Assembly: GCF_009707365.1 (NCBI RefSeq)
Contig: NZ_CP046122.1
Span: forward strand, 2,108,001 to 2,172,000
Direction of reading: 5' to 3'
From: Microlunatus sp. Gsoil 973
GTDB taxonomy: Bacteria; Actinomycetota; Actinomycetes; Propionibacteriales; Propionibacteriaceae
DNA length: 64,000 nt
Below are positions 48,704 through 62,191 of this stretch, piece by piece. The notes under the pieces were generated by a model. The model was not told the DNA's origin. It saw only the letters and a list, made by a program, of their open reading frames with translations, and made no database searches. Position 1 is the first letter of the stretch. The number at the start of each line of letters is the position of its first letter. The position numbers were made by a program, and so were the translations under genes.

Positions 48704-49260
48704 TGAACCTGGTCTTCCTGCACGGCGGGCCTGCGTCGGGCAAGCTCACCACGGCACGGGCGATGGGGCGCAGGCTCGGTTACCCGGTCTTCCACAACCA
48801 CCTGACGGTCAACATGCTGACAACGGTCTTCCCGTTCGGCTCCGAACCCTTCGTTCGCCTCCGGGAGCAGATCTGGCTCTCGGTGATCACCGATGCGGCA
48901 CGGACCGGCCGGTCGGTGATCTTCACCTTTGCCCCGGAGTCGACCGTGCAGTTCGGATTCCCGGATCGGTTGCGGGCTGCGGTCGAGGACAACGGCGGCC
49001 GGCTGTGCTCGGTCCGGCTGGAGGTCAGCGAACGGACCCAGGAGGCGAGGATCGCCAACCCCAGCCGGGTCGCGGTCGGCAAACTGGCCGATGTCGAACT
49101 GCTCCGCGCCGGACGGAAGCATCATTCACCGGTCGAGTTCCCCACCGCCGAACTGACCATCGACACCGACAGCAGTGATCCCGAACGCAGTGCCGAAACG
49201 ATCATCGCGTCGTTCGACCTCCGGCCGGAGCAGCCGGTGATCAGCTTCCCGGAACCATGA
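48700..49260 (+). CDS. Predicted P-loop kinase/AAA-family ATP-binding protein
   Basis: 186 residues. MNLVFLHGGPASGKLTTARAMG is a Walker A motif in which the usual Lys-Thr/Ser is KL-T. The middle carries FHNHLTVNMLTTVFPFG and SVIFTFAPES, as in small AAA_33 kinases. A possible shikimate- or nucleoside-kinase-type reaction is unproven. It overlaps the preceding acetyltransferase gene by four bases and converges on cimA, overlapping its 3' end by 20 bases. Confidence 0.75.
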   Translation: MMNLVFLHGGPASGKLTTARAMGRRLGYPVFHNHLTVNMLTTVFPFGSEPFVRLREQIWLSVITDAARTGRSVIFTFAPESTVQFGFPDRLRAAVEDNGGRLCSVRLEVSERTQEARIANPSRVAVGKLADVELLRAGRKHHSPVEFPTAELTIDTDSSDPERSAETIIASFDLRPEQPVISFPEP

Positions 49261-50857
49261 CCGCTGAACGCAGCAGGCCATAGCTGTATGCCTCGCTGAG
49301 CGCTTCCCAGGACGCTTCGATCACATTCTGGCCGACGCCGACGGTTGTCCAGGTGTGCAGCCCATCGGTCGTCTGGATCAGCACGCGGATCGTCGCGTCC
49401 GTGCCGTGTCCCTGATCGAGGATCCGGACCCGGTAGTCGCTCAACTCGAACCGGTCGACGACCGGATAGACCGGCAGCAGCGCCTGCCGGAGAGCATGAT
49501 CAAGTGCGTTCACCGGACCGTTGCCCTCGCCGACGACCCGGGTGGCGGTGCCACCCGCCTCGAGTTTGATCGTGGCCTCGGTGTCGATCTCGCCGTCCTT
49601 GCCGGAGTGGGTGAAGACCCGCCAGGACCGGGCGACGAAGAACTCCGGCAATTGATCAAGTTCGCTGCGCAGCAGCAGCTCGAAGCTGGCGTCGGCACCC
49701 TCATAGGTGTAGCCGTCCGCCTCGCGCTCCTTGACCTTGTCGGTGATCTTCGCCGCCAGGTCCCGATCGGACAGGTCGAAACCGAGCTCGCCACCCTTGA
49801 TCTGGATGTTGGCCCGGCCCGCCATGTCGGACACGAGCATCCGCATGTCATTGCCGACCAGCGCCGGATCGATGTGCTGGTAGAGATTCGGGTCGACCTT
49901 GATCGCGCTGGCGTGCAGCCCCGCCTTGTGGGTGAAGGACGACAGACCAACATAGGGTTGACGATTGCTCGGTGGAACATTCGTCACCTCGGCGATCGCA
50001 TGGGATAGTCGCGTCGCCTCGGCCAGCGATCCGGCCGGCAGCAGCTGCCAGCCGTACTTCAGCTCGAGATTGGCCACGATCGGGATCAGGTCGGCATTGC
50101 CGGTCCGTTCCCCGTAGCCGTTGATGGTTCCTTGGACGTGCATCGCACCGGCGTCGACCGCGGCCATCGTGTTGGCGACCGCGCACCCGGTGTCGTTGTG
50201 AGCATGCATGCCGAGCCGGGCCTCGGTGCGCTCGGCGACCTCGCTGACGATCTCGCCGACCCAGCTGGGCAGCATGCCGCCGTTGGTATCGCACAGCACA
50301 GCGACCTCGGCACCGGCCTGCATCGCAGTGCGGACCACCTCAAGGGCGTAAGCCTTGTTATCCCGGAAGCCGTCGAAGAAGTGCTCGCAGTCCAGGAACA
50401 CCCGCTGTCCCTGGGCGACCAGGTGGCTCACCGTGTCGGTGATCATCGCCAGGTTCTCCTCCAGGGAGGTGCGCAGCGCCCGGAGGACGTGTTGATCATG
50501 ACTCTTGGCCACCACACAGGCAACGGAGGCGCCGGAGTCGCGGAGCGCGGCGGTCAGCGGGTCGTCGGCCGCCCGTCCCCCGACCCGGCGGGTGAAGCCG
50601 AAGGCCGCCAGGGTCGCGTTCTTCAGCGTCAGCTCGCCGGAGGTGGCTGCCGCGAAGAAGGCCGTGTCGTTGGGATTGGCTCCGGGCCAGCCGCCCTCGA
50701 TGTAGTCCACCCCGAGTTCGTCCAGGTAGCCCGCGATGTGCAGCTTGTCCTGGACGGAGAGCCGCAGGCCCTCCTGCTGTGCGCCGTCGCGCAGCGTGGT
50801 GTCGTACACATGGAACTCGGCGGGCCGCGGATGCGGTGCCGACGGTGTGGTTGACAT
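49241..50857 (-). CDS. cimA: Citramalate synthase
   Basis: 538 residues. The DRE-TIM motif DTTLRDGAQQEGLRLSVQDKL, metal-binding HAHNDTGCAVAN and NGYGERTGNADL, and the C-terminal LeuA-dimer regulatory domain identify the citramalate synthase branch (the LeuA-like but longer N-terminal module with EGGWPGANPND). It makes citramalate from pyruvate and acetyl-CoA, the entry to threonine-independent isoleucine synthesis. ATG 50857 has GAGGAA upstream; an alternative ATG at 50887 lies inside the leader terminator. A leader peptide and attenuator precede it. Confidence 0.92.
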   Translation of the reverse strand: MSTTPSAPHPRPAEFHVYDTTLRDGAQQEGLRLSVQDKLHIAGYLDELGVDYIEGGWPGANPNDTAFFAAATSGELTLKNATLAAFGFTRRVGGRAADDPLTAALRDSGASVACVVAKSHDQHVLRALRTSLEENLAMITDTVSHLVAQGQRVFLDCEHFFDGFRDNKAYALEVVRTAMQAGAEVAVLCDTNGGMLPSWVGEIVSEVAERTEARLGMHAHNDTGCAVANTMAAVDAGAMHVQGTINGYGERTGNADLIPIVANLELKYGWQLLPAGSLAEATRLSHAIAEVTNVPPSNRQPYVGLSSFTHKAGLHASAIKVDPNLYQHIDPALVGNDMRMLVSDMAGRANIQIKGGELGFDLSDRDLAAKITDKVKEREADGYTYEGADASFELLLRSELDQLPEFFVARSWRVFTHSGKDGEIDTEATIKLEAGGTATRVVGEGNGPVNALDHALRQALLPVYPVVDRFELSDYRVRILDQGHGTDATIRVLIQTTDGLHTWTTVGVGQNVIEASWEALSEAYSYGLLRSAVMVPGS

Positions 50858-50888: not shown

Positions 50889-50919
50889 AAAAAACCTCCC
50901 GGCGGGAGCACAGGAGGTT
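50889..50919 (-). terminator. Attenuator terminator in the cimA leader
   Basis: On the minus strand AACCTCC pairs with GGAGGTT (7 bp) around a 13-base loop, followed by a T-run of six. It lies 41 bases after the leader peptide stop and 32 bases before the cimA start. A second hairpin, GCGCGCTG at 50960-50953 with CAGCGCGC at 50928-50921, sits between leader and terminator and can act as the competing structure. Confidence 0.8.
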
Positions 50920-50959
50920 GGCGCGCTGGGTGCTGTCTCGTGGGCAGCCGCTCAGCGCG

Positions 50960-50989
50960 CTAGCTAATGATGATGGCCTGGAATGCCAT
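50960..50989 (-). CDS. cimA leader peptide, MAFQAIIIS
   Basis: A nine-codon reading frame from ATG 50989 to TAG 50960-50962 with three consecutive Ile codons (ATC ATC ATT). The stop codon overlaps the 5' arm of the first hairpin, and a rho-independent terminator follows before cimA, so ribosome stalling at the Ile codons should decide read-through. CimA feeds isoleucine synthesis, so the codons match the pathway. Ribosome-binding site and promoter are not obvious. Confidence 0.7.
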   Translation of the reverse strand: MAFQAIIIS

Positions 50990-51055
50990 GGGAGCAGTCT
51001 GCACCCGCTCGGGACGATTCGCCACAGTTTCGTCCGAATCCTGAGACTGTTCGGC

Positions 51056-62143: not shown

Positions 62144-62191
62144 TCAGCCGGCGCGCTTTCTGAGTACGAGAATCGTGGATGCATTACGCAC
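62144..62191 (-). CDS. ilvB leader peptide with Ile-Leu-Val-Leu codons
   Basis: A 15-codon reading frame (MRNASTILVLRKRAG, starting with GTG 62191, TGA at 62144-62146) with consecutive ATT CTC GTA CTC codons. Together with the terminator it has the layout of a branched-chain amino acid attenuator, as known ahead of ilvB in corynebacteria and streptomycetes. TAGGTC directly in front of the start suggests a near-leaderless transcript; TTGACA farther upstream is spaced too widely to be its obvious -35 box. Confidence 0.8.
   Translation of the reverse strand: MRNASTILVLRKRAG

Follow-up and report, generated by a model that had tools for sequence, protein, structure and literature searches.

The 101-nt leader that lies between a Nudix gene and cimA on the minus strand of Microlunatus sp. 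Gsoil 973 very probably represents a transcription attenuator of the actinobacterial ilvB type, one that works through the ribosome, responds to isoleucine and occurs across much of the class. This broad claim is made because of the anatomy of the leader, the match between control codons and downstream genes, and the tested relatives in M. tuberculosis (ilvB1) and C. glutamicum (ilvBNC). Gene identity, the open reading frame, the hairpin, the terminator, their conservation, covariation and spacing rules, and the codon-gene match were observed directly. CimA opens the pyruvate route to isoleucine, and if an isoleucine sensor stands before its gene, many actinobacteria, antibiotic producers included, set this branch apart from the shared ilv genes. 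cimA would join the genes already known to be attenuated in this class. The kind of control is a familiar one and the platform is widespread, the gene being what is new; the layout is unusual in that no base-paired antiterminator was found. The cimA leader could also be a practical handle for the production of isoleucine or citramalate.

Anatomy of the cimA leader

All features below are on the minus strand of the window, the whole 64-kb stretch of DNA that was analysed. The nine-codon frame MAFQAIIIS with three adjacent isoleucine codons, as proposed in the sequence-only reading, is present at 50960..50989 (ATG GCA TTC CAG GCC ATC ATC ATT AGC TAG). Its control codons ATC ATC ATT (50966..50974) begin 14, 11, and 8 nt before the arm of a hairpin, here hairpin 1, and its stop TAG occupies 50962-50960. 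The perfect 8-bp hairpin of the same reading was recovered by sequence, folding, and covariation, with the 5' arm GCGCGCTG (50953..50960) pairing at 8 of 8 positions with the 3' arm CAGCGCGC (50921..50928). The stop had been placed in the first arm, which is true of the last G of TAG and not of the rest of the codon. One base after hairpin 1 follows the T-tailed terminator that had been expected ahead of cimA, an intrinsic terminator hairpin at 50893..50919 (AACCTCCTG at 50919-50911 with CGGGAGGTT at 50901-50893) and a U tract of T6 at 50889..50894, the first two T of which are shared with the stem. The leader has the parts by which leader-peptide attenuators are recognised, namely a short ORF that precedes the gene and carries codons for the amino acid produced, and an intrinsic terminator between ORF and gene. 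A hexamer resembling a -10 element, CAGACT (50996..51001), ends 6 nt before the leader ATG, and its position suggests a leaderless transcript that starts at this ATG.

The downstream gene cimA (49241..50857; ATG at 50857, GAGGA upstream) encodes a citramalate synthase of 538 aa. Its product scored 609 bits against TIGR00977, the curated NCBI model for citramalate synthase with a cut-off of 450, and was the sole match over the cut-off genome-wide. Upstream on the same strand lie ilvE (52602-51523) and the Nudix gene (51517-51056). Another ATG right after the U tract (50887-50857) is in frame with cimA, which may therefore start 10 codons further upstream; by eye, such an ATG was also seen in the relatives L084 and L085 and not in L086.

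The 101-nt leader folded at -44.5 kcal/mol, and none of 200 dinucleotide shuffles folded as well (z -3.6). A terminator scan of a 1-kb region on both strands returned one site, the cimA-leader terminator; because shuffles gave 0.4 sites on average, the terminator alone is weak evidence.

Covariance model and distribution among actinobacteria

Nineteen actinobacterial cimA leaders of other lineages served to build a covariance model, R1; no training record was titled Propionibacteriaceae, and two (L031 and L050) were MAGs of unclear family. Searched against the window, R1 recovered the cimA leader with 44 bits (E 1.7e-11), a second good site at 62182-62086 with 22.2 bits (E 1e-4), which is the ilvB leader, and a weak third match (E 0.8). 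Against the 4.9-Mb genome, with 150 of 8395 first-look candidates scored, the cimA leader was the sole significant place listed (E 1.3e-9), followed by a match at E 0.3. This search was not exhaustive because of the share of candidates scored and because its list came without the ilvB leader that the window search gave. Neither the window leader nor the loci L083, L015, L066, and L182 had a match above the gathering cut-off in Rfam 15.

In the class sample, R1 matches at E 0.01 or less were obtained under strict filters in 184 of 296 genomes, some of the 184 being ilvB leaders, and TIGR00977 matched in 234 of 296 genomes, 230 of them over the cut-off. Sixty loci, one per genus, were fetched from the listed, best-scoring R1 matches of this sample; cimA was the next gene on the same strand in 59 of them and ilvB in one (L182). 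The phylum sample contained R1 matches in 32 of 149 genomes, six of which belong to the class. Taxa with the element comprise Streptomyces, Nonomuraea, Thermobifida, Pedococcus, Knoellia, Nocardioides, and others, with leader frames such as MIIGSRRAGPQ, FYGLLIISRRAG, QAIIIVRRAG, and VIID, each ending at a stop. Within the genus, MAFQAIIIS occurred again in L084 and MAFQALIIT in L085.

The set of cimA loci consisted of 80 loci from named genomes and 30 from Propionibacteriaceae, the family of the window, in which a cimA relative was matched in 161 of 197 genomes. By a scripted rule, a terminator with a preceding hairpin was found upstream in 95 of 111 loci, the window's own locus being counted twice. 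In the 16 loci where the rule found no terminator, L067 keeps the peptide and L004 is cut by its contig.

The leader is not universal before cimA. Homologous loci that lack the element, which the sequence-only reading had held to count against it, do exist outside the genus: it was absent from 14 of 19 testable family loci there, the other five being L006, L100, L103, L104, and L107, and from 19 of 20 further cimA upstream regions. Those 20 regions were taken from 17 genomes without a reported R1 match and 3 with one (G252, G348, and G207), and the element was present only in that of G207 (L228, 38.4 bits). Within the genus no such loss was met, as all 17 fetched loci carry the element (20 same-genus genomes had a cimA match). 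In several small genomes among the 20 regions, cimA lies directly 3' of ilvE. Eight loci of one family, f19, without the isoleucine leader (L209, L210, L211, L213, L222, L224, L225, and L227) carry another conserved stretch before cimA, GGCGGYGAACCCGTC..GTCGCGCG..CCGG, which has no Rfam match and a possible short GTG frame without isoleucine.

Spacing rules and covariation

The alignment with related genomes that the sequence-only reading had called for bore it out: the isoleucine frame, the hairpin, and the terminator are kept in many loci, the loop and the spacer from terminator to cimA drift, and the arms covary. Anatomy was counted on 112 of 152 elements, 40 near-identical Streptomyces elements being left out; 109 of the 112 are distinct, and three pairs are identical over the core. 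The frame was chosen for each leader as the one richest in Ile for frame and spacing counts, or in Ile/Leu/Val for residue counts. In 110 of 112 elements, a start, an isoleucine codon, and a nearby stop are in the same frame. For 88 of 110 leaders, the first isoleucine codon was placed at -14 or -11 nt relative to the hairpin; the stop codons range from -4 to +23. Hairpin 1 and the terminator are separated by 0 nt in 78 and by 1 nt in 21 of 110 leaders, the search having covered about -4 to +12. The loop of hairpin 1 ranges from 3 to 52 nt in this count and up to 55 nt in the loci examined by the scripted rule. Between the terminator and the first cimA residue matched lie 20 to 282 nt, a variable spacer that favours a transcription switch. 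Of the 96 leaders with a start in the examined frame, 80 have a -10-like hexamer (A at 2 and T at 6, or equal score) 5-9 nt and mostly 6-7 nt ahead of a start codon, a raw count.

In alignment A2 (98 rows), 96.1% of the hairpin 1 cells were paired compared with 83.8% after shuffling, and 184 double changes were counted compared with 49; since the alignment was fitted to the model, these counts lean towards it. When the partner was slid, pairing fell to 62.5% or less. Of the five lower GC pairs, three are invariant and the other two change in two sequences each; hence these pairs say little. Among the rows of A2 are also the window's ilvB leader and three short matches on the reverse strand. 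A T run follows the terminator stem in nearly all aligned rows.

Related leaders before other genes

The ilvB leader of the window (62191-62086) begins with the ORF VRNASTILVLRKRAG, ending at a stop (62144..62191, minus strand), followed by a hairpin and a terminator, and stands before ilvB (62030-60249, minus strand). The cimA and ilvB leaders of Microlunatus sp. Gsoil 973 look like relatives. Other genes behind R1 matches were examined in 25 loci, L182 and L233-L256, the latter 24 from the phylum sample. Curated models named the downstream gene in 19 of the 25: 14 are ilvB, and leuA (L235), 3-isopropylmalate dehydrogenase (L234), leuS (L249), cimA (L242), and isocitrate lyase (L251) occurred once each. 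The downstream genes of L238, L241, L247, L252, L255, and L256 were not named by these models.

The residues encoded before the hairpin amount to 238 Ile, 65 Leu, and 52 Val in 111 cimA leaders, and to 11 Ile, 17 Leu, and 17 Val in 11 ilvB leaders, a set that excludes the ilvB leaders L239, L240, L244, and L253. The leuA leader has NLLLT before the hairpin and the distant cimA leader SIIIIR, while the frame of the leuS leader is VRTGLLLTEPR before its stop. The stalling codons had been said to match the pathway, and this view held, the cimA leaders being rich in Ile, the ilvB leaders in Leu, Val, and Ile, and the leuA leader in Leu. As far as the sequences go, control codons follow the downstream gene, the leuB case aside. 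In that case, at about 1475-1560 of L234, a frame ..AVIIIE ending at a stop (leuB leader VIIIE) and a hairpin precede the 3-isopropylmalate dehydrogenase gene; here an isoleucine run stands before a gene named for leucine synthesis, the product of which could act in the citramalate route. The match before the isocitrate lyase gene in L251 is weak (E 6e-4) and counts against the attenuator explanation.

Comparison with described leaders

The ilvBNC attenuator of C. glutamicum and the ilvB-II motif resemble the cimA leaders in their short, near-leaderless BCAA frame, hairpin, and adjoining U-tailed terminator, and differ in standing before ilvB with Leu/Val control codons, whereas those of cimA leaders are mainly Ile (PMC11857589, PMC10272879). 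The two-hairpin arrangement of the ilvB type, a BCAA frame running into a hairpin that adjoins the terminator, was found here with a gap of 0-1 nt in 99 of 110 leaders, and R1 cross-matches ilvB leaders. In ilvBNC, the antiterminator borders on the terminator and has three bases, GCC, in common with it (PMC11857589). In contrast to this shared GCC, or to the pairing of the P1 loop with the terminator in these systems (PMC11857589, PMC10272879), no pairing shared with the terminator, be it a GCC boundary or loop-to-terminator, was found in full or masked folds of cimA leaders.

The ilvB1 leader of M. tuberculosis likewise has a frame of BCAA codons and a terminator, and in its model a ribosome at the stop masks the antiterminator; it differs in the gene and in its control codons LVVI (PMC13236596). 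Exchange of LVVI for AAAA resulted in low, dose-independent reporter expression (PMC13236596). S. lividans ilvL, MRTRILVLGKRVG (PMC8079986), and the ilvB leader of the window share the GCGCG arm of the cimA leaders. The ends of these ilvB-leader peptides, ..KRAG or ..KRVG, resemble the ..SRRAG of Streptomyces and Nonomuraea cimA leaders. These ilvB leaders differ in having Ile, Leu, and Val codons and a frame that reads through the hairpin arm. In S. coelicolor, codon changes in a similar leader before ilvB were reported to be without effect (PMC1262725), which counts against the attenuator explanation.

The leuS leader of Streptomyces, described as a classical attenuator, is similar to the cimA leader in its leaderless frame, hairpin, and U-tailed terminator, and differs in its leucine codons and tRNA synthetase gene (PMC1262725, PMC8079986). 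The R1-matched leuS leader L249 is close to S. lividans MRAVRLLLSEPR before leuS (PMC8079986). The widespread LEU element before leuA of Actinobacteria also has a leader frame with a series of codons for the amino acid that the pathway makes, and differs by a pseudoknot with the leuA ribosome site and by the lack of an obvious terminator (PMC1262725). As an identity for the cimA leader the LEU element was ruled out, since a U-tailed terminator is present and cimA follows at a variable 20-282 nt.

No attenuator of cimA was found in the openly accessible literature searched, in agreement with the sequence-only reading, which knew of no such leader for this gene; an entry in a data table is possible. 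In the accessible text of PMC1262725, the species of which include S. coelicolor, S. avermitilis, and T. fusca, and in that of PMC10272879, "citramal" and cimA did not occur. The accessible part of PMC8079986 gives eight leader peptides, none of them at cimA. The accessible main texts of PMC11109978, PMC8269248, PMC2965389, and PMC8632094 had no occurrence of "citramal", and that of PMC13236596 none of cimA. From the accessible part of a S. clavuligerus study, 96 novel premature transcripts are reported, not all of which are named.

Proposed mechanism

Transcription would probably begin at the leader ATG. When Ile-tRNA is plentiful, the ribosome would reach the stop codon, situated at the first arm of hairpin 1 or inside it, and cover this arm, and the polymerase would halt at the terminator. 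When Ile-tRNA is scarce, the ribosome would wait at the first isoleucine codon, usually 11-14 nt before the hairpin, with its front edge approximately at the start of the arm; hairpin 1 could then fold ahead of it, flush with the foot of the terminator, and the polymerase would continue into cimA. The folded hairpin would remove the loop and set the ribosome against the terminator foot while the polymerase is at the U tract. Translation of the frame, sensing of Ile-tRNA, and this direction of the response are what we infer from the conserved layout.

The front edge of a ribosome lies about 12 nt ahead of its A site. By this figure, the edge would come to about +1 (median) for a ribosome at the first isoleucine codon and to about +10 for one at the stop, so the former would leave arm 1 nearly free and the latter would cover it. 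The wait would have to fall on the first isoleucine codon because at the last one (mostly -8) the ribosome would hide about five of the arm's bases.

No alternative pairing that breaks the terminator was identified. With arm 1 masked, the terminator still folded in all 23 hand-picked leaders, a set with the window and without Streptomyces, and in 103 of 110 leaders with Streptomyces included; several of the seven exceptions, e.g., L154 and L191, seem to be hairpins that the script put in the wrong place. Both hairpins formed together in the full fold of 104 of 110 leaders, and the nascent RNA of the 23 hand-picked leaders, folded before the 3' arm of the terminator, gave no strong competing structure. 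Hairpin 1 therefore does not resemble a textbook antiterminator, as the terminator survives masking and the hairpins coexist. A classical four-segment attenuator of the trp type was rejected, since these folds showed no 2:3 antiterminator that uses the 5' arm of the terminator and is exclusive with it, and the terminator folds with arm 1 masked. Several pairings picked out by eye in some leaders did not hold across the set: GGUCUGC with GCAGACC at the terminator foot in leaders of the Nonomuraea type, AGG or GAGG next to arm 1 opposite CCU in the arm of the terminator, and loops resembling the terminator arm. The isoleucine-codon attenuator reading is supported with the caveat that no classical antiterminator was found.

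Because the folds made contained no base-paired antiterminator, crowding at the flush junction is put forward as the way in which hairpin 1 and the waiting ribosome would defeat the terminator, a tentative idea to which we give somewhat less than even chances. It would explain why both short spacings are fixed and the loop is free. Hairpin 1 may instead act in the opposite role, as a pause or pro-termination hairpin. More doubtful is a wider generalisation, that in Actinomycetota the leaders of cimA, ilvB, leuA, and leuS form a single, exchangeable sensor platform, in which the control codons can be swapped and which works with no base-paired antiterminator. On this view, a ribosome 11-14 nt before the hairpin would let it fold and end flush at the terminator foot, blocking its closing, and evolution would have fixed the two short spacings and not the loop. 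The natural variants, i.e., codon swaps, loop lengths, and losses, are enough to test attenuation without an obvious antiterminator. How this works has been a question on actinobacterial ilvB and leuA leaders since the comparison of 2005 (PMC1262725).

Alternative explanations

The position of ilvE and the Nudix gene upstream on the same strand means that the terminator would stop their transcript, and it might do merely this, with coincidental isoleucine codons and a cimA promoter further down. We consider this very unlikely, as the combination of isoleucine frame, flush hairpin, and terminator is preserved in many genera in which the sequence further upstream differs, and the identity of the codons tracks the downstream gene. 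The latter also bears on an element made of RNA only, a riboswitch or protein-binding site in which the isoleucine codons arose by chance: Leu/Val codons replace Ile before ilvB, leuA, and leuS, variation at the isoleucine codons of leaders is mostly ATC/ATT, and start, Ile, and stop share one frame in 110 of 112 elements. Such an element would suit the strong conservation of GCGCG in the hairpin arm and of the ATT codon, the missing base-paired antiterminator in the folds, and the lack of an Rfam 15 match; on balance it appears even less probable than a mere transcript end.

Least probable of these is translational control, by which the leader hairpins would gate the cimA ribosome-binding site and not transcription. 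It could draw on the 3' arm of the terminator in the window, GGGAGG, with an ATG in the reading frame of cimA 7 nt beyond it, and on the actinobacterial LEU element, which pairs with the leuA ribosome site (PMC1262725). The varying distance between terminator and cimA (20 to 282 nt) and the T run after the stem in nearly all aligned rows speak against it and are consistent with the preferred transcription attenuator.

Isoleucine codons in the leaders

Threonine is the precursor in the other route to isoleucine. A single isoleucine codon was present in 13 of 110 leaders, some with Thr beside it, which counts against the attenuator explanation; in L100, L103, L104, L191, L203, L204, and L205, the single Ile is followed by Thr (or Thr-Pro) codons instead of an isoleucine run. 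ATT accounts for 53% of the isoleucine codons in leaders (109/207) compared with 3% in cimA genes (56/1862), related sequences being treated as independent. One and the same tRNA reads ATT and ATC, and the excess of ATT in the leaders may reflect slower wobble reading or a constraint on the RNA.
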